DNA from: Alphaproteobacteria bacterium
Lineage (GTDB): Bacteria > Pseudomonadota > Alphaproteobacteria > ATCC43930 > CGMCC-115725
Assembly: GCA_030041335.1 (NCBI GenBank)
Contig: JASHOB010000082.1
Coordinates: forward strand, 1 to 64,000
Length of the DNA stretch: 64,000 nt
Direction: 5' to 3'
Part shown: positions 52,703-61,767 of the stretch, in pieces
Position numbering within the stretch: position 1 is the stretch's first letter
Layout: every line of letters starts with the position of its first letter
Program-made: the position numbers and the translations under genes
The notes under the pieces: model-generated
The model's input: only the letters and a program-made list of their open reading frames with translations
The model's database searches: none
What the model was told of the DNA's origin: nothing

Positions 52703-53653
52703 ATGGGCAAGAGAGTGCTGTCGATGCTTGATAACCCTGCGGCCAATTATCATTCTGGGGCGCGTTCCGCCCGGAACCACGTGCCCCGACGGCCACGTCC
52801 CGGGAGCCCGGAACATTTGCAAGCATTTTGTCGAATGCTCCTCGACACCCACGATCCTTACCGACCGAGAGTACTCGACTGGCCGAAGCTCGAACCCGAC
52901 GCATTGGCGCGTCTTCAGAGCCTGCCGATCTGGGATATTGCGGTGAAGACGGAGGGTTTGGCGAGCAGCCGCGTCAACGCCTACGCGCAACGCGTCTTCG
53001 ATCCGTTGCTGCGGCAGGCGGTCGAGTTGAACGGCTTCGAAGAGGGGCGCCATAAGACCGTTCTGGCGAATCTAGTCGAGGCCTACGGCATCAAATTGGC
53101 GCCTGAGCAATCCTACCCCCAGCCGCGCCACGTCGAATGGGCGTTCATGGTGACCGGCTACAGCGAGTGTATCGACAGCTTTTTTGCCTTCGGCTTATTC
53201 GAGTTGGCCAAACGGTCGGGATTTTTTCCGACGGCGCTCGTAAGCACGTTCGAGCCGGTCATGCGTGAGGAAGGCCGTCACATCCTATTCTTCGTCAATT
53301 GGGTGGCCTGGCATCGCCGCAATCTCCCTTACTGGCGCCGACCGATGTTCCAGGCGAAGATAGTTGCGGTTTGGGCGTTCCTTATTTGGGAGCGAATCGG
53401 CCTCGCGCGCGGCGTTGACGCCAAGCAAGACAATAATTTTACCGTATCCGGAAGCCGCTCGCTGGATATCAATATCTCGCTCGCGGACCTGATCGATGTC
53501 TGTTTGAGCGAAAACGCCCGTCGGCTTGACCCGTACGATCCGAGACTATTGCGTCCGACCTTCGTGCCCCGAATGGCCCAGTTTGCCCGCTGGATTCTGG
53601 TTTGGCCGAAACGGCGCGGCGGGTCACTTAAGGCCGCGGCGCCGAAACATTGA
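52703..53653 (+). CDS. ferritin-like diiron-domain protein in hopanoid locus
   Basis: The 316-residue protein has a four-helix diiron pattern. Candidate ligands follow the E / ExxH / E / ExxH order: Glu84, Glu114-His117 (in EEGRH), Glu155 (in YSECID) and Glu190-His193 (in EEGRH). This is the pattern of ferritin-like oxygenases and hydroxylases such as fatty-acid desaturases of the acyl-ACP type or rubrerythrin relatives. I do not recognise an exact family. It is followed at once by hpnL and hpnM, suggesting work on a hopanoid or another envelope lipid. The start at 52703 lacks a clear ribosome binding site; ATG 52724 is an alternative. Confidence 0.7.
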   Translation: MGKRVLSMLDNPAANYHSGARSARNHVPRRPRPGSPEHLQAFCRMLLDTHDPYRPRVLDWPKLEPDALARLQSLPIWDIAVKTEGLASSRVNAYAQRVFDPLLRQAVELNGFEEGRHKTVLANLVEAYGIKLAPEQSYPQPRHVEWAFMVTGYSECIDSFFAFGLFELAKRSGFFPTALVSTFEPVMREEGRHILFFVNWVAWHRRNLPYWRRPMFQAKIVAVWAFLIWERIGLARGVDAKQDNNFTVSGSRSLDINISLADLIDVCLSENARRLDPYDPRLLRPTFVPRMAQFARWILVWPKRRGGSLKAAAPKH

Positions 53654-53667
53654 CCGGTAGCCGGCTC

Positions 53668-54675
53668 ATGAGGCGCCTGACGATCGCGTTTCTCGCGGGC
53701 GGCTTTGCCCTGACCGCCTGGCTCGTCTGGCGCTCGGGCGCCCCTACCATCGGCTCCGCGCTCCGCACGGTCGGGTTGACCGGCCTGGTCGCGATTGCGG
53801 CGTTTCACCTCATCGGTACCACGCTCATGGGATTGGCATGGTGGCGGCTTCTGCGCGTGGGCAAGCCGAGAACCTTTATCTGGGCACGTCTGGTGCGTGA
53901 CGCCGGGTCCGAGGTGTTGCCTTTGTCGCAGATCGGCGGGTATGTGTTGGGCGCACGCTCGGTGATTGTTCAAGGGATCGGTGGCATCGGCGTCGCTGCC
54001 TCGACCGTTGTCGATGCAACGCTCGAGTTTTCGGCGCAGATAACCTACGCCGCGATCGGGTTGGCCTTGTTCATGTGGCTTTCGCCGGACCGCGCCATTG
54101 CCGAGTTGGTGGTTGCCTTCCTCTGCGTCGCCGTCATAGTCGCCGGAATCTTTATTACCTTGCAGCGGCGCCGGTCGGATTTTCTGCGCCGGCTCGCCGA
54201 GCGCCTCGCCGGCCGCCGGTTCGGCCGTATCGTAAACAACGCAGCTGCGGTGCAAGCGGAGATTCAGCGCCTTGCCCGCTTCAAGCGCGTTTGGCTGTCT
54301 TATTTGCTGCACCTCGGAGCTTGGTTCGTCAGCGGCTTCGAAGCCTGGTTGGCGCTGCGGCTGATGGGGGTGGCTTTGGGTTTCGCCACCGTCCTGGCGA
54401 TCGAAAGCCTGGTTCACGCCGTACGAGCGATGGCCTTCGCTGTTCCCAGTGCACTTGGCGTGCAGGAGGGCGCCTACATCATCCTCGGTGCGGCGTTCGG
54501 TCTGCCGCCGGAGTTCGCGCTAGGCGTGTCACTCATAAGGCGGGGGCGAGATCTCATACTCGGCGTGCCCGCGATACTGACGTGGCAAATTTCGGAGAGC
54601 CGCAAACGGTGGTCTGGCGGCGATCTCAGACCGATCGCGATTCCGGTGGACACGTCCTCGGCCGAACGACGCTGA
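53668..54675 (+). CDS. hpnL: HpnL-like membrane protein (UPF0104/LPG-synthase TM family)
   Basis: From the ATG at 53668 the product is 335 residues; a TTG at 53650 would add six and overlap the diiron gene. It has about seven or eight hydrophobic segments and the family motif near LGVQEGAYIILGAAFGLPPE. The lysylphosphatidylglycerol-synthase transmembrane family includes HpnL of hopanoid clusters, and the neighbouring hpnM, hpnN, hpnI and hpnJ genes support that name. It may flip or move a lipid across the inner membrane, which is inference. The hpnM gene begins seven bases after the stop. Confidence 0.85.
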   Translation: MRRLTIAFLAGGFALTAWLVWRSGAPTIGSALRTVGLTGLVAIAAFHLIGTTLMGLAWWRLLRVGKPRTFIWARLVRDAGSEVLPLSQIGGYVLGARSVIVQGIGGIGVAASTVVDATLEFSAQITYAAIGLALFMWLSPDRAIAELVVAFLCVAVIVAGIFITLQRRRSDFLRRLAERLAGRRFGRIVNNAAAVQAEIQRLARFKRVWLSYLLHLGAWFVSGFEAWLALRLMGVALGFATVLAIESLVHAVRAMAFAVPSALGVQEGAYIILGAAFGLPPEFALGVSLIRRGRDLILGVPAILTWQISESRKRWSGGDLRPIAIPVDTSSAERR

Positions 54676-54682
54676 ATCGCGG

Positions 54683-55318
54683 ATGAACGGGCACCGAACC
54701 ATGCGCCTGGTCACCGCGAGACTATTCTTCGCGTTCGCTGCGGCGCTGATCCTATGGGCAGGGGGCGCCCAGGCGGCCTCTGGGAGCGCGTCAGACGCGA
54801 TCCGCAAATTCTATGACGTGCTATTGCAGACAATGAAGACCGGCCCGACGTTGGGGGCGGGGGGACGCTATCGCGCTCTCCAACCGGCGGTGGCTGAAAC
54901 GTTTGATCTCCCCTACATGACCACGCTGGCAGTAGGACCGAAATGGGCCGACCTCACGCCATCCGAGCGTGCCCAGGTCATCAGCGCATTCCAACATTAT
55001 ACCGTCGCGAATTATGCCAACCAATTCGATGCCTATAACGGCCAGCAGTTTCGAGTCAGCGGCGAACAGCGGCGGGACACCGACACCATCGTCGACACGG
55101 ACATTGTCAAAGGCGATGGCACCTCGGTGGCGGTGAAGTACCGTATGCATTCGGCGGACGGAAATTGGCGCATCATCGATGTCTATCTCGACGGTTCGAT
55201 TAGCCAACTGGCGATTCGCCGCTCCGAGTTCTCCTCGGTCTTGAATCAGCAGGGTGTCGATGGCTTGATCGCAACGCTGAACCAGAAAGCGGACGCCCTG
55301 GTCGGGCCGTCGCGGTGA
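54683..55318 (+). CDS. hpnM: HpnM, MlaC/Ttg2D-like periplasmic lipid-binding protein
   Basis: The 211-residue protein has a signal peptide (LFFAFAAALILWAGGAQAASG) and the MlaC/toluene-tolerance fold. YDVLLQTMKTGPTLGAGGRY is near the start and VAVKYRMHSADGNWRIIDVYLDGSI in the second half, where W and DV are highly conserved. HpnM-type proteins accompany HpnN in hopanoid clusters and are thought to bind lipids in the periplasm. No mlaFED partners are here. It is convergent with hpnN; nine bases separate their stops. Confidence 0.9.
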   Translation: MNGHRTMRLVTARLFFAFAAALILWAGGAQAASGSASDAIRKFYDVLLQTMKTGPTLGAGGRYRALQPAVAETFDLPYMTTLAVGPKWADLTPSERAQVISAFQHYTVANYANQFDAYNGQQFRVSGEQRRDTDTIVDTDIVKGDGTSVAVKYRMHSADGNWRIIDVYLDGSISQLAIRRSEFSSVLNQQGVDGLIATLNQKADALVGPSR

Positions 55319-55326
55319 CGCTTGGC

Positions 55327-57921
55327 CTAGCGGCGCGGTGGGCCGAGTAGTGCCGGCTCGAACAATAGGGCGACAATCAGCGTCCACAGTATCGAAATGA
55401 TCAGCAGCCGTCCCGTGCCTGCGGTGCCCGGGTGCGTCGACAGCGATAACGTGCCAAAAGCGGTTCCGGTGGTGAGCGCACTAAACAGCACCGCACGCGC
55501 CAGGCTCGACTGGAGTGGTTTTGACTCGCCCGTCCGCCAGGCAATGACGAAATAGATGTTGAAGGCAACGCCGACACCGAAGAGCAGCGGTAGTGCAATG
55601 ATATTTGCGAAGTCGAGTGCCTCCCCGGTCAGCACGCAAGTGGCCAGCGTCAGGAGCCCGGTTAGAAAGATTGGCACCATGGTCAAGACGACGTCCCGGA
55701 TTCGGCGCAGCACGAGAACAAGCAGGGCGACGATGCCAAGAAATGACCAGAGACCTGCCTGGGCGAAAGCGTTCACCATCATCCGTGCCGCCTCTTGAGT
55801 CGTCACGGGCGGCCCGGTCGCGTCGGGCGCAACGGCAAGGACGGCGCGCACGAAACGTCGCAGCGTTCGATTGTCGTTCGAATCGCCTCGTGGAACCACG
55901 TTAATTCGGGCACGACCGTCTGGCGTCAGCCAATCGCGAACCAAATCGGCCGGCATCGTTTGTCGGGTCACCGGTTTCGCCTGAAGCAGGTCGTGCAATT
56001 GCCCGATCAGAATGCGAAAGGGATCGATCAAAACCCGTGATGCACGATCGCGATCCGCCTTTGGCGCGGCTGCTAACTCGCTGAGCACCGAGGCGAGCCG
56101 GTTGGCACGGTCCGCCGATTTGCCGCGCGCCGTGCCTGCTGCCTGCCGCAGCGCTGCCGCAGTGGCGCGAAGACTGTCGATGGTTTCGCGATCGCTTGGC
56201 GGCGGTTTGGTATCGAGCGGCGTGAACACCGAATCGAGCAGCATGGCCGCGTTCTCGATCATCGCCAGCTTTTCCGGCTGATGCTCGGGGATGAAGCTGC
56301 TCAGCGTCGTCGCGCGCTCTACTTCGGGCAGCGCCGCGAGACGCTCTGCCAGAGCGTCCGCGGCCTTCAGGGAGGGCGCTATGATGTCGACGGTATTGGG
56401 TGTGTGATCCGGATCCGACATCAGATCGGCAAGCGTCGCCACCGACTCGACCTTCGGGCTACGAAGATGAAACGGATTGAAGTCGAACCGCAACCACGGC
56501 AGCGACAATAGCGAGACCAGCGCCGCCGCCGTTGCGATCGCAAGAACGAGCCGTCGGCGTTTGACCAGAAAGCGGTCAAGCGGCGCCAACGCGGCGAAGC
56601 CGACGGCCTCGGCTTCGCCGGCCGGACGAACCACTGTCAAGAGCGCCGGAAGAAACGTGATGGCGAGCACGAAGGCGACCACCATACCCATCCCGGCGAT
56701 CACCCCAAGTTCAGCCGCGCCGATATAGCTCGTCGGCAGGAAGGCGAAGAAACCGATCGCGGTCGCCGCCGCCGCGAGCGCCAACGAGCCGCCGACCCTC
56801 CTTCCCGCTTCGACCAGCGCGGCTCTCAAATTCGTCTGCAGCAACCGCTCCGCCCGGTAGCGGACACTGAATTGGATCGCAAAATCGATCCCGAGCCCAA
56901 CAAATAGCGGCACGAAGCCGACGGAGAGCACGTTGAACGTTCCGAACGTCGCAAGGCCGAGACAGGTTGTGATGGCGAGGCCGGCGAGAGTCGTTGACAT
57001 GATGCACACAATCACCCGAATCGACCGGACGGCGAACCACAACATCAGCAGCACGCCAGCGATCATGACCCCGGTCATCAGCCAGGCACGCTCGGCGATG
57101 GTCGCGAACTCGTCGTCCGCGAGCACGGCCTGCCCCGTTAGCCGAACGCTAACGCCGCCTTGACGAGTGAGATCGAGATCCCGGACCGTCTGGCGGATAA
57201 CGTCGATCGCGGTGTCGGCGGCCAGCAACTTGGTAAAATCAAGCTTTGGCTCGACCAGGATGAAGCGTCGGGTCTCCCGGCGGCTCGGCGGCTGATTCGA
57301 GATTAATTCGCGCCACGAAAAAATCGCGGGCTTGCCCTGAAGCACAGCGCTGATCGCGTCGGCAACGGCTTGGAAGGGCCGGTCAAACGTGGCGAGCTTG
57401 GTGTCGCCGTGGCTGACGCCGAGAAGCGCGTTCGACAGGGTCGCGGTCACGCCGCGCAGGCTGGGATCCGCTGCTATCGGCCCCAAAAACGGTTGCGCGG
57501 CGATCAACTGCGTCGTGTTGGTGTCGAGCTCCGCGGGCGACAAGAATAAGAGCCCTTCATGGCTGAAAAAGGGACCGGCATCCGGCCGGCGCACAGCGTC
57601 GAAACTGTCCGACCGCTGCGCGAGCTTTGCCGCCAACGACGCGGCGGCGGCTTCGGCAAGCTCGGGCGTAACACCGTCGATAACCACCACGATGTTAGTG
57701 TCGAGCTGCGGGAAAGCGCGGTCGAAGGCCGTTTGGTTGCGTCGCCATGGCACGTCGGGCGAGATCAACGCCAGCGAGTCGCTGTTGATGGCGAAATGCT
57801 GGCGCGTGTAGGCGACCGACAAGAGGGTGAGTATGGCGACAAGAATAATGACCAGCGCCGCACGCTCGCAGCTCGTGCGGACGAGCCGTGCGACAGTCGC
57901 TCCGATCCAGTCCGACGCCAT
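55327..57921 (-). CDS. hpnN: HpnN, RND-family hopanoid transporter
   Basis: The 864-residue protein is an RND/MMPL-type exporter with about 12 hydrophobic segments in two halves. Each half is preceded by a large periplasmic loop, the first beginning RQHFAINSDSLALISPD. The GLGIDFAIQFSVRYRAE motif in the first half is typical of HpnN, which in Rhodopseudomonas palustris moves hopanoids to the outer membrane. It is the last gene of the sulfotransferase-hpnI-hpnJ-hpnN unit, 34 bases after hpnJ. Confidence 0.92.
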   Translation of the reverse strand: MASDWIGATVARLVRTSCERAALVIILVAILTLLSVAYTRQHFAINSDSLALISPDVPWRRNQTAFDRAFPQLDTNIVVVIDGVTPELAEAAAASLAAKLAQRSDSFDAVRRPDAGPFFSHEGLLFLSPAELDTNTTQLIAAQPFLGPIAADPSLRGVTATLSNALLGVSHGDTKLATFDRPFQAVADAISAVLQGKPAIFSWRELISNQPPSRRETRRFILVEPKLDFTKLLAADTAIDVIRQTVRDLDLTRQGGVSVRLTGQAVLADDEFATIAERAWLMTGVMIAGVLLMLWFAVRSIRVIVCIMSTTLAGLAITTCLGLATFGTFNVLSVGFVPLFVGLGIDFAIQFSVRYRAERLLQTNLRAALVEAGRRVGGSLALAAAATAIGFFAFLPTSYIGAAELGVIAGMGMVVAFVLAITFLPALLTVVRPAGEAEAVGFAALAPLDRFLVKRRRLVLAIATAAALVSLLSLPWLRFDFNPFHLRSPKVESVATLADLMSDPDHTPNTVDIIAPSLKAADALAERLAALPEVERATTLSSFIPEHQPEKLAMIENAAMLLDSVFTPLDTKPPPSDRETIDSLRATAAALRQAAGTARGKSADRANRLASVLSELAAAPKADRDRASRVLIDPFRILIGQLHDLLQAKPVTRQTMPADLVRDWLTPDGRARINVVPRGDSNDNRTLRRFVRAVLAVAPDATGPPVTTQEAARMMVNAFAQAGLWSFLGIVALLVLVLRRIRDVVLTMVPIFLTGLLTLATCVLTGEALDFANIIALPLLFGVGVAFNIYFVIAWRTGESKPLQSSLARAVLFSALTTGTAFGTLSLSTHPGTAGTGRLLIISILWTLIVALLFEPALLGPPRR

Positions 57922-57955
57922 GTCAGACCGTCAAGCTCGTCCCTGGCCGTGGAGT

Positions 57956-59383
57956 CTAATGAGCCGCCGCGCGGTCGCGCAGGAAGTGAAAAAACTCAAC
58001 GCCTTCTCGCAAGCGCCTGACCATCATCTCGGGACTCATTACCATCTCAGCCACGATCGATGCGATCTTGTCGGTGCGGAAATAGAAACGGCGATAAAAC
58101 GCTTCGACCGAGTTGAAAATCTCTGTATGCGTCAGATTTGGATAATTCAGGGGCGCGATTTGGATGCCGCGTTCGTCGGTCATTTCCGGATGGTCGAAAT
58201 CGAACCAGCCATTCTCCATCGCCTGGCGATAAAGCTCGGTGCCGGGATACGGCGCCGCCAGGGAAACCTGTATGGTGTGAGGATTGATCTCTCGCGCGAA
58301 TTCGATGGTCTCCTCGATCGTCTCTTTGGTTTCTCCTGGGAGGCCCATGATGAAAGTGCCGTGAATCACGATGCCGATGTCGTGGCAATCCTTGGTAAAC
58401 CGCTTGGCGACGTCGATCAGCATTCCCTTCTTGATATTGTGTAGAATTTGCTGGTTTCCCGATTCGTAGCCTACGAGGAGAAGGCGCAGACCGTTGTCGC
58501 GCATGATCTTGAGCGTCTTGCGCGGGACATTGGCCTTGGCGTTGCACGACCACGTCACGCCCAGTTTTCCGAGTTCGCGCGCGATCGCCTCGGTGCGCGG
58601 CAGGTTGTCGGTAAAGGTATCGTCGTCGAAGAAAAATTCCTTCACCTGCGGAAAGTATTGCTTCGCCAACCGGATCTCGTCGATGACATGACCAACGCTA
58701 CGGACACGGTAACGGTGGCCGCCGACCGTCTGCGGCCATAAACAGAAGGAGCAACGCGACTTGCAGCCGCGACCGGCATATAGCGACAAATAAGGATGTT
58801 TCAGATAGCCGATAAAGTAGTTGGCGATTTGCAGGTCGCGCCTATAGACCTCGGTCACGAACGGCAGCTGGTCCATATCCTCGAGAATCCCGCGCTCGGG
58901 ATTATGGACAATGGCACCGGACGCGGTGCGGTAGCTCAATCCGTCGATCGAGGCGAACGGGCGGCCTTCCGCCACTTCCTTGACCGTGAAATCGAATTCG
59001 TTGCGCGCGACGAAATCAATGATCGGCGAGGCGCGAAGACTGACGTCCGGTTCGACTGCGACTTTGGCGCCGACAAAGCCGACCGTGAGGTTCGGATTGG
59101 TCGCATGCATTGCTTCGGCGACCTTGACGTCGCCCGGGAATGACGGCGTCGAGGTGTGGATGACCAGGAGCTCGTAGTCGCGCGCCAACGGCAGCAGCGC
59201 ATCGAGGCCGATCCCCGCGGGCGGCGCATCAATCAGCCGACTTCCCGGCACCAGCGCCGCGGGCTGCGCGAGCCAGGTCGGATACCAGAATGAGCGGATT
59301 TCTCGCCGGGCCTGATATCGTGATCCGGCGCCGCCGTCGAATCCCTCATAGGAGGGGGGTTGTAGGAATAACGCCTTCATCAT
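57956..59383 (-). CDS. hpnJ: HpnJ, hopanoid-associated radical SAM enzyme
   Basis: The 475-residue protein opens with FLQPPSYEGFDGGAGSRYQA, the HpnJ hallmark, then a B12-binding-like Rossmann domain. The radical-SAM cluster motif is CKSRCSFC (Cys207, Cys211, Cys214) in YAGRGCKSRCSFCLWPQ. HpnJ is needed to form the cyclitol-ether head group of bacteriohopanetetrol in Burkholderia. It starts 12 bases after hpnI stops. HpnK, which supplies the deacetylated precursor, is not encoded in this window. Confidence 0.93.
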   Translation of the reverse strand: MMKALFLQPPSYEGFDGGAGSRYQARREIRSFWYPTWLAQPAALVPGSRLIDAPPAGIGLDALLPLARDYELLVIHTSTPSFPGDVKVAEAMHATNPNLTVGFVGAKVAVEPDVSLRASPIIDFVARNEFDFTVKEVAEGRPFASIDGLSYRTASGAIVHNPERGILEDMDQLPFVTEVYRRDLQIANYFIGYLKHPYLSLYAGRGCKSRCSFCLWPQTVGGHRYRVRSVGHVIDEIRLAKQYFPQVKEFFFDDDTFTDNLPRTEAIARELGKLGVTWSCNAKANVPRKTLKIMRDNGLRLLLVGYESGNQQILHNIKKGMLIDVAKRFTKDCHDIGIVIHGTFIMGLPGETKETIEETIEFAREINPHTIQVSLAAPYPGTELYRQAMENGWFDFDHPEMTDERGIQIAPLNYPNLTHTEIFNSVEAFYRRFYFRTDKIASIVAEMVMSPEMMVRRLREGVEFFHFLRDRAAAH

Positions 59384-59395
59384 GCCGAAAATACC

Positions 59396-60535
59396 TCAAT
59401 TCGAGACTAGAGTACCATCGGATCGCACACGAAATGTCTGGTCGCGCCAAGTCACCGCTTGGGCGAAAAAGCTGGAAAGGAATAAGGCAAAAGTTAAGGC
59501 ATCACGAATCGGTAATAGCCAGATCGCAATTTGACGCAACCGGAGCGCACGGTTGTTCGCAATTGCCGTCAAAACCCGCAAGGCGAGTGCCACCAGGAGC
59601 GTCCCCGCCGCCAGTGCCGGCTGGGCACCGAGGATCAGAGCCAGCAAGGCCAGCATCATCGGATGGGTAATGACCGAGCCCGCATATCCCAAGGGCGCGA
59701 CCGACCTCAAGGTCCGCGCCCAACGCAGCTCGTGGCGGAACAGGCTGCCGAGGCCCGGCTCGACCACGATGTTATCGATAAGGTGCCGCGAGATCACGAC
59801 GCGCCCGCCTCCGGTTCGGACGGCGTTGCCCAGAGCGTGGTCGTCAGCCAACGTGTTGGCCGCAACCGCGAATCCCCCGATCGCTTCCAATGTCCGCCGC
59901 CGCAGCGCCAAGGTCGCACCAAAACAGCCGGCGCCGACATTGAGGCCGGCGCCGACGACGGCTTGCGGCAGGAAGCTGTGATTGATGTAGAGGCAGGCGA
60001 CCCGCGACCAGAAGCCGCCGCCGCAGATCCCGCGATAGAGACAAGTGACCAGCGCGACGCCCGGTTGCCGTAGCGTCCAGGATATTTCGCCGAGATAGGT
60101 GGGCGATACCCGCATATCGCTGTCGGAAATAACCAGAAGCTCGTGCTTCGCGGCCGGCAACATGTTGCGAAGGTTGGCGATCTTGGGATTGGAGCCGCTG
60201 GTGCGGTTATCGATGACGAGAGCGACGTCGACCTTCGGGAACTCGGCGCAAAGGCGCCGGACGATCGGCACGGCCGGGTCTTCGCCGTCTGAGACCCCGA
60301 ATACGATCTGAAACTCCCCGATATCTTGCCGAAAAAACGAGGCGAGATTGTCATAGAGACCGGGGTCCTCGCCCCGGAGCGGCTTTAATACGCTGACGGG
60401 TCCGCGCTCGTCGCGCGCCGTGGTTCGCCCGCGGACAAAATGGCCGACCGCGACGCTGGCATGGATCAGGTAGACGCATCCCGCCATACTGGCTGCAATG
60501 AGCAGCTCGCCGATGACACTGATCCAGTTGTGCAT
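59396..60535 (-). CDS. hpnI: HpnI, hopanoid-associated glycosyltransferase
   Basis: The 379-residue protein is a GT2-type transferase similar to ceramide glucosyltransferases. The N-terminal membrane segment is ELLIAASMAGCVYLIHASVAV, the DSDMRV motif binds metal and nucleotide, and LRWARTLRSV takes the place of the Q/RxxRW motif. Several C-terminal hydrophobic segments follow. HpnI attaches N-acetylglucosamine to bacteriohopanetetrol. It lies 11 bases downstream of the sulfotransferase gene and 12 upstream of hpnJ. Confidence 0.92.
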   Translation of the reverse strand: MHNWISVIGELLIAASMAGCVYLIHASVAVGHFVRGRTTARDERGPVSVLKPLRGEDPGLYDNLASFFRQDIGEFQIVFGVSDGEDPAVPIVRRLCAEFPKVDVALVIDNRTSGSNPKIANLRNMLPAAKHELLVISDSDMRVSPTYLGEISWTLRQPGVALVTCLYRGICGGGFWSRVACLYINHSFLPQAVVGAGLNVGAGCFGATLALRRRTLEAIGGFAVAANTLADDHALGNAVRTGGGRVVISRHLIDNIVVEPGLGSLFRHELRWARTLRSVAPLGYAGSVITHPMMLALLALILGAQPALAAGTLLVALALRVLTAIANNRALRLRQIAIWLLPIRDALTFALFLSSFFAQAVTWRDQTFRVRSDGTLVSN

Positions 60536-60546
60536 CGAGGCACCCC

Positions 60547-61767
60547 TCAGACCCCAAAGCAGGCTACGTAACCGCTAAATCGGTACCTCTCCTCCCGCAA
60601 ATCGATCCCATAGTCGCTGGCGAGGGCCTTGTTGCCTCGGTAGCCCGCGTTCGGATCTCCCGCGACGAGTGACTGCATATCCTTCGCGACGCTTGGCCTC
60701 AGAGGCAGGCCGAAATAGCGGTAGAGCGAGGTGACGCTGGCGATCGGATCGCGGATGAATTCCGGGAAGCGCATATGGAAGACCCGCTCGGGCGCGATGC
60801 GGGCGGTTTGCGCCGCTTCCATCATGGTGAGAGCGCCCGATTCCCAGCGTCGGGTCACCTGGCGGCCAATCGCGGCGCGGTCGATGTGGCGGGCAAAAGG
60901 CCGCCGCAGCACCTCGGTCAGCCGTGCAACCGATGGCAAGACCTGGAGAGGGTCACGATGCGTGAAGACAAAACGGGCATCCGGGTAAAGGCTGAGAATC
61001 GCATCCAAGGCGAAAACATGGTCGGGACTTTTCAAAACCCAACGCCCGGAGCCCTTGCGCAATTGCAAATGCCGCAGGAAACGTCGATGGAACGCGTAGG
61101 CGACGAAATGGCCGGTGTCGTCGAGCCATCGCTGATAACTGGGAACGTGATGCGTGGTATCGAAGCGCAGGCTGCGAAACACGTGCGCGGTAATCTCCGT
61201 GCACTCTTGCGGCGACTGCGCGGTAATGGGGTGGACGTGTTGAAAGTCGGGTGCCATTTTCGCGAATATCGCCAACTGCCGATCGACCGCGCGTGCCTTT
61301 GCCACGGCACCGCCCTCTTCCTCCGGCAAGGGATAGATCGTCTCCCAACTGCGAACCACCAGGTTCGAACGGTCCTGTCCGAGGAGACGGTGCAGAAAAG
61401 TCGAGCCGCTGCGCGGCAGTCCCGTAATGAAGATCGGCTGTTCAATCGATTGATCGAGAATCCCGGGTGTACGCCTTTCCGCTTCGCGCAGTCTGAGCAG
61501 ATTGGAAAGGAAGCGGACAATGTCCCACTTCGCGGCCATGCGGCCGATGACGCTGAGATCGGCCTCGCGTTCGAAACTCTGTAACAGCAGCGCCAGCGCT
61601 TCCTCAAAATTGGCGTCTTCGAACTCGCGCAATCCGGTAATCCGCTGCGCTATTGCGATAAGATCGGACGGCAGCAATGGCTGGCGCAATAGGCCGAACG
61701 CCTCAGCACCATAGTCAATTGCCCGAACAATTCTAGGGATCACCACACCGCACTCCCGAAGAGTCAT
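60547..61767 (-). CDS. PAPS-dependent sulfotransferase-family protein heading the hpnI-J-N unit
   Basis: The 406-residue protein has a sulfotransferase fold after an N-terminal helical extension of about 110 residues. The 5'-phosphosulfate loop is GLPRSGSTFLHRLL at residues 116-129, and the 3'-phosphate region looks like FTHRDPLQVLPSVARL. The family (Sulfotransfer_3-like) includes carbohydrate and lipid sulfotransferases and some inactive relatives. It is first in a tightly spaced unit with hpnI, hpnJ and hpnN, so a hopanoid or hopanoid-linked sugar is the natural guess for its acceptor. That is inference. Confidence 0.82.
   Translation of the reverse strand: MTLRECGVVIPRIVRAIDYGAEAFGLLRQPLLPSDLIAIAQRITGLREFEDANFEEALALLLQSFEREADLSVIGRMAAKWDIVRFLSNLLRLREAERRTPGILDQSIEQPIFITGLPRSGSTFLHRLLGQDRSNLVVRSWETIYPLPEEEGGAVAKARAVDRQLAIFAKMAPDFQHVHPITAQSPQECTEITAHVFRSLRFDTTHHVPSYQRWLDDTGHFVAYAFHRRFLRHLQLRKGSGRWVLKSPDHVFALDAILSLYPDARFVFTHRDPLQVLPSVARLTEVLRRPFARHIDRAAIGRQVTRRWESGALTMMEAAQTARIAPERVFHMRFPEFIRDPIASVTSLYRYFGLPLRPSVAKDMQSLVAGDPNAGYRGNKALASDYGIDLREERYRFSGYVACFGV

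Follow-up and report, generated by a model that had tools for sequence, protein, structure and literature searches.

Hopanoids are the bacterial counterparts of cholesterol and major geological biomarkers, and the composite hopanoids known to us carry neutral or basic head groups. The cyclitol ether of bacteriohopanetetrol is built by HpnI, HpnK and HpnJ, and the pathway as described stops at that product, with no sulfation step (PMC12583986). Here we describe a gene for a predicted sulfotransferase in a 64,000-nucleotide stretch of alphaproteobacterial DNA (assembly GCA_030041335.1, contig JASHOB010000082.1, positions 1 to 64,000), which we refer to as the window. In the window, hpnI and hpnJ come after the sulfotransferase gene and hpnK lies elsewhere in the genome. 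Judging from sequence comparisons, we propose, at a probability of roughly 0.78, that this gene encodes a cytosolic sulfotransferase dependent on 3′-phosphoadenosine 5′-phosphosulfate (PAPS) that sulfates a bacteriohopanepolyol before export, most likely on the head group made by HpnI, HpnK and HpnJ.

The closest solved relatives of the protein are two mycobacterial enzymes, STF1 of Mycobacterium tuberculosis (2zq5; sequence E value 7e-53, fold E value 8e-22) and, in second place, STF9 of Mycobacterium avium (2z6v; 2e-38 and 4e-20). Both share their PAPS-binding loops with the window sulfotransferase but are only 25 to 29% identical to it in structural alignment. Mycobacterial relatives act on glycolipids. 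A functional analogue is the hydroxysteroid sulfotransferase SULT2A1, which uses PAPS to sulfate a polycyclic terpenoid alcohol. Unlike the window enzyme, it is eukaryotic, belongs to another subfamily and has a sterol rather than a hopanoid as its acceptor, and SULT2A1-type folds (1ov4 and 1efh) are only weakly similar to the window model. The third group of described components, the hopanoid transport genes hpnL, hpnM and hpnN, are the usual partners of the sulfotransferase gene in other genomes. Their products are not known to require sulfated cargo or to carry it, and what HpnL and HpnM do is considered unsettled (PMC12583986).

The sulfotransferase and its gene unit

The window protein matched the Sulfotransfer_3 profile (PF13469) with 159 bits against a cut-off of 27, and no NCBIfam model matched it. 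Its AlphaFold2 model, with a predicted local distance difference test score (pLDDT) of 92.2, matched STF1 and STF9 over nearly the whole chain (template modeling scores by query length of 0.80 for 2zq5 and 0.82 for 2z6v), and the predicted structure has the sulfotransferase fold. An earlier note made from this DNA had described an intact PAPS-binding loop, which both the sequence and the family alignment bear out. This 5′-phosphosulfate loop and the 3′-phosphate motif running from R271 to S279 were kept across 35 aligned orthologues, and residues R119, G121, K246, R271 and S279 were common to the orthologues and to 20 outgroup Sulfotransfer_3 proteins. The hopanoid-linked clade differs from the outgroup at 17 diagnostic positions, among them F168, Q187, R201, H331 and G375-Y376, whose residues are rare in the 20 outgroup proteins. 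For PAPS supply, the window genome encodes a CysN-CysC fusion (contig C153) that includes an adenosine 5′-phosphosulfate (APS) kinase domain (233 bits). Besides the window protein, Sulfotransfer_3 matches this genome once more, on contig C11.

The sulfotransferase gene is separated from hpnI by 11 bases, hpnI from hpnJ by 12 and hpnJ from hpnN by 34, all four genes lying on the minus strand. On recheck, the coordinates and spacers in the earlier note proved exact, and the identities it gave the genes agreed with Sulfotransfer_3, HpnI, HpnJ and HpnN profile scores above the curated cut-offs. The spacing of the genes suggests that they are transcribed together, and no terminator-like site was found in the three spacers. 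A scan with the sigma-70 consensus, which may not be the promoter type of this host, found no promoter-like site. On the plus strand, hpnL and hpnM adjoin the unit and are convergent with hpnN.

Linkage to and co-occurrence with hopanoid genes

Among 84,980 species genomes scanned there were 160 relatives, and the best 80 loci were fetched and used for the linkage counts. In a phylogenetic tree, the 80 orthologues and the window protein formed one clade with respect to 20 other Sulfotransfer_3 proteins (Shimodaira-Hasegawa-like approximate likelihood ratio test support 99.9); clade members scored at least 420 bits and the lower-scoring homologues at most 282 bits. An hpn gene lay within 2.5 kb of the sulfotransferase gene in 47 of the 80 orthologous loci, and one further locus had P316, a protein also encoded in the window. 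Where the flanks were complete (at least 2.5 kb on each side), 34 of 53 loci were linked, one of them through P316 alone. The genes found within 2.5 kb were hpnL (24 loci), hpnM (22), hpnN (6), hpnK (4) and hpnI together with hpnJ (1). Each of 10 sampled neighbours passed the cut-off of at least one HpnL, HpnM, HpnN, HpnK, HpnI or HpnJ model.

These neighbours were arranged in several ways. The hpnL orthologues were the commonest same-strand neighbour, lying downstream of the sulfotransferase gene in 18 loci and overlapping it by 4 bases in several of them, and in 21 loci hpnM was divergent and upstream. Elsewhere hpnN or hpnK lay on the opposite strand, or hpnI was divergent. Adjacency to hpnI, hpnJ or hpnK was not the usual arrangement, hpnL, hpnM and hpnN being commoner. 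The linked loci span Alpha- and Betaproteobacteria outside the lineage of the window. On the tree, linkage was clustered, requiring 14 changes compared with a mean of 34 after shuffling. That linkage has been kept through repeated rearrangement points to function and not to frozen synteny. Within the order of the window genome, 10 of 43 genomes had an orthologue (51 to 54% identity), and four of the nine other than the window's adjoined hpnN or an hpnL-like gene. No close orthologue was plasmid-borne; the proteins found on plasmids reached 34% identity at most.

Co-occurrence was assessed in 51 genomes, comprising 50 locus-bearing genomes, 32 of which had been picked because no hpnI-to-hpnN gene lay beside the sulfotransferase gene, and the window genome. 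An even sample of 386 genomes of the class served as background. HpnH was present in 50 of the 51 genomes and in 99 of the 386 (Fisher P = 2e-25, a descriptive value that ignores shared ancestry). In the sole genome lacking HpnH (L105), hpnL adjoins the sulfotransferase gene and HpnI and HpnJ are both present. HpnI was found in 49 of the 51 genomes compared with 30 of the 386, the latter amounting to some 30% of the hpnH-bearing genomes in the class sample; given HpnH, the Fisher P value is 3e-17, which assumes that all 30 HpnI-positive class genomes carry HpnH and again ignores ancestry. HpnJ was present in 50 of the 51, in two cases as fragments below the cut-off, and an APS kinase in 47. 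The possibility raised in the earlier note that homologues in other genomes are unlinked to hpn genes is thus answered by hpn linkage in 47 of 80 loci and by HpnH in 50 of 51 genomes.

As an internal control, we considered 16 genomes of the class that carried only lower-scoring homologues; HpnH was present in five, about the background frequency. No hpn gene was found in flanks of about 1 kb, a shorter range than that used for the clade, at 20 loci of lower-scoring homologues. We therefore rejected the idea that the association is a general trait of Sulfotransfer_3 proteins. In the order of the window genome, HpnI was found in 9 of the 10 sulfotransferase-bearing genomes, in one as a fragment only. 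Five near-complete genomes lacked HpnI, and none of the five had the sulfotransferase.

The acceptor and competing explanations

In the betaproteobacterium Caballeronia calidae (L085:4637-11902), hpnL, hpnK, hpnJ and hpnI run one way, the sulfotransferase gene is divergent from them, and a gene for an APS kinase converges on it. The kinase is intact, with 194 to 205 residues depending on the start, and is the only one found in that genome. Neither hpnM nor hpnN was found within the fetched flank. Sulfate assimilation in many Proteobacteria can proceed from APS directly, and the simplest reading is therefore that the sulfotransferase draws its PAPS from this kinase. A further HpnI/HpnJ pair is encoded on another contig, together with HpnH, and on the simplest reading the extra hpnI-hpnJ-hpnK-hpnL set makes the acceptor of the sulfotransferase. 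The locus may be an acquired hopanoid-sulfation island.

We infer the enzymatic activity, the acceptor, the site of sulfation and its order relative to export as follows. PAPS made by APS kinase (here the CysN-CysC fusion) would donate its sulfuryl group, and a bacteriohopanepolyol would accept it through a hydroxyl or through its amine. Because PAPS is cytosolic, this is expected to happen at the inner leaflet, on the inner face of the inner membrane. The likeliest acceptor would be glucosaminyl bacteriohopanetetrol or its cyclitol ether, the products of HpnI, HpnK and HpnJ. Sulfation would follow assembly of this head group, or take place on bacteriohopanetetrol itself, and in either case precede export. 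HpnL, HpnM and HpnN would then handle the anionic product on its way to the outer membrane.

That the window protein belongs to the hopanoid pathway is, in our view, quite probable. The choice of acceptor is a closer matter. The gene partners and the co-occurrence favour the HpnI/HpnK/HpnJ head group over another bacteriohopanepolyol, at slightly better than even odds. Sulfation of the head group, as suggested in the earlier note, is favoured by the HpnI and HpnJ counts and by the Caballeronia island, but adjacency to hpnI is seen in only two lineages, those of the window and Caballeronia, with hpnK near four other loci, and this tells against it.

The same enzyme may instead sulfate a polyol side chain, that of bacteriohopanetetrol, bacteriohopanepentol or bacteriohopanehexol (or ribosylhopane), a reading we consider unlikely though worth keeping in mind. 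Its commonest neighbours are indeed hpnL and hpnM rather than hpnI and hpnJ, and an additional hydroxylation before sulfation would suit the cytochrome P450 family encoded near the gene in nine loci. One genome (G428) has the sulfotransferase and HpnH and lacks both HpnI and HpnJ, but it is a metagenome-assembled genome and may be incomplete. A side-chain acceptor would leave unexplained why HpnI and HpnJ accompany the enzyme far more often than they occur among HpnH-bearing genomes of the class, and why an extra hpnI-hpnJ-hpnK-hpnL set adjoins the gene in Caballeronia.

Less likely still, the enzyme would sulfate some other lipid or glycan of the envelope that is exported by HpnN, HpnM and HpnL or by an Mla-type system, and would have hopanoid genes as neighbours through shared export. 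Transport-type genes account for many of the linkages, MlaF-like and MlaD-like genes precede the sulfotransferase gene in one locus (L104), lipid A-related genes precede it in Acidocella and Acidiphilium, and the glycolipid acceptors of the mycobacterial relatives would agree with such a role. Shared export fits poorly, however, with the near-total co-occurrence with HpnH, HpnI and HpnJ, which includes all 32 genomes without an adjoining hpnI-to-hpnN gene, and with the Caballeronia island, which combines head-group genes and an APS kinase and has no hpnM or hpnN in the fetched flank. That an unrelated or detoxifying sulfotransferase precedes hpnI by chance is very improbable and was rejected: Sulfotransfer_3 is a common family with many acceptors, and 33 of the 80 loci have no hpn gene within 2.5 kb, but hpnI-to-hpnN neighbourhoods cover no more than about 1% of a genome. 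Linkage in 47 of 80 loci is therefore not chance, and it recurs in several arrangements and lineages alongside the HpnH and HpnI co-occurrence and the APS kinase island.

Several observations weigh against a hopanoid sulfotransferase. No hpnI-to-hpnN gene or P316 lay beside the gene in 19 of the 53 fully flanked loci, and in Acidocella and Acidiphilium it comes after lpxD, fabZ and a glyoxalase-like gene, with no hpn genes. Shared ancestry inflates the co-occurrence, as many loci are from Acetobacteraceae, in which hopanoid genes are general. APS kinase was not detected in four of the sulfotransferase-bearing genomes, some of which are incomplete assemblies, and many of the loci come from incomplete metagenome assemblies. 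In the order of the window genome, HpnI mostly occurs without the sulfotransferase, so the modification would be optional.

Text searches of 5.4 million open-access papers, which leave most subscription journals outside their coverage and so fall short of proving absence, found no sulfated hopanoid, and nothing relevant on a hopanoid with a sulfate ester or on APS kinase in this connection. A mention of a sulfotransferase in a survey of Acetobacteraceae clusters was set aside because it concerned polyketide clusters. A 2025 study of 52 Alphaproteobacteria, which looked with particular care at unknown genes in the vicinity of hpn clusters, reported hpnA, hpnB, hpnL and hpnM and no further candidates (PMC12583986).

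The finding leads us to expect a class of hopanoids that has so far gone unreported, sulfated and negatively charged. On balance, we favour the view that these are a genuine overlooked class of lipids with a dedicated sulfotransferase, found in many acidophilic Acetobacteraceae and their relatives, in Caballeronia with an APS kinase of its own and in further uncultured lineages, and that they have been missed because the usual methods for intact hopanoids are better suited to neutral or positive species. Work on intact hopanoids is mostly done in positive-ion mode, which would miss sulfates. If this is true, sulfate would make the lipid strongly acidic at any pH, the surface charge and proton permeability of the outer membrane could change, notably in acidophiles, and a sulfated pool would be undercounted in intact-lipid surveys. 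The sulfotransferase gene offers an immediate genetic handle, and the cultured carriers include Acidiphilium rubrum ATCC 35905, Acidocella aquatica NBRC 112502, Acidisphaera rubrifaciens HS-AP3, Acidisoma silvae, Limobrevibacterium gyesilva and Caballeronia calidae LMG 29321.

Features of the window and neighbouring genes

Table 1. Features at the sulfotransferase locus, in window coordinates
Feature	Position	Strand	Evidence
Sulfotransferase gene of the Sulfotransfer_3 family (406 aa), at the head of the unit	60547..61767	-	Open reading frame; Pfam PF13469; AlphaFold2 fold; PAPS residues
PAPS 5′-phosphosulfate-binding loop, residues 115-129 (TGLPRSGSTFLHRLL)	61379..61423	-	Sequence and family alignment
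PAPS 3′-phosphate-binding motif, R271 to S279	60931..60957	-	Invariant in 35 orthologues
hpnI, bacteriohopanetetrol glucosamine biosynthesis glycosyltransferase	59396..60535	-	TIGR03472, 438 bits, cut-off 310
hpnJ, radical S-adenosylmethionine protein (cyclitol ether formation)	57956..59383	-	TIGR03471, 814 bits, cut-off 577.6
hpnN, resistance-nodulation-division-type hopanoid transporter	55327..57921	-	NF052374, 1100.5 bits, cut-off 1100; TIGR03480, 1014.6 bits
hpnM, MlaC-like periplasmic protein, converges on hpnN	54683..55318	+	TIGR03481, 201 bits, cut-off 160
hpnL, flippase-like membrane protein	53650..54675	+	TIGR03476, 252 bits, cut-off 196
P316, protein without assigned family, just 5′ of hpnL	52703..53653	+	No Pfam, NCBIfam or PDB relative

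P316 has 316 residues, and no relatives of it were found in Pfam, NCBIfam or the PDB. In Acidisphaera rubrifaciens a homologue with 61% identity is encoded 3′ of the sulfotransferase gene, with a 4-base overlap. The protein carries conserved E..H motifs (EEGRH; EE.RH) that are suggestive of a ferritin-like diiron site. The genes for the formation of bacteriohopanepentol and -hexol are not yet known (PMC12583986), and P316 is for that reason, speculatively, a candidate oxidase. An AlphaFold2 model built from two sequences reached a pLDDT of 40, too low to use.

The hpnI, hpnK and hpnJ genes are usually described as closely associated. In the window genome, hpnK is separate and lies outside the unit on contig C155 (G000:C155, L016:15632-16429), among ilvC, ilvB, leuA and serB and apart from hpnI and hpnJ; hpnH is on contig C185. 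In seven loci of the Acidocella/Acidiphilium group (L097, L098, L100, L101, L106, L107 and L109), the sulfotransferase gene follows a run of genes among which are lpxD, fabZ and the glyoxalase-like gene, mostly a few bases from the last of these. At L104:8035-11275, the MlaF-like and MlaD-like genes run into the sulfotransferase gene with a 4-base overlap, suggesting a link with Mla-type lipid transport. The cytochrome P450 family (cluster c6) found near the sulfotransferase gene in nine loci lies one or two genes away in L040, L043, L044, L051, L054, L059, L068 and L092, often with hpnM or hpnL, and possibly provides a hydroxylation step that precedes sulfation.

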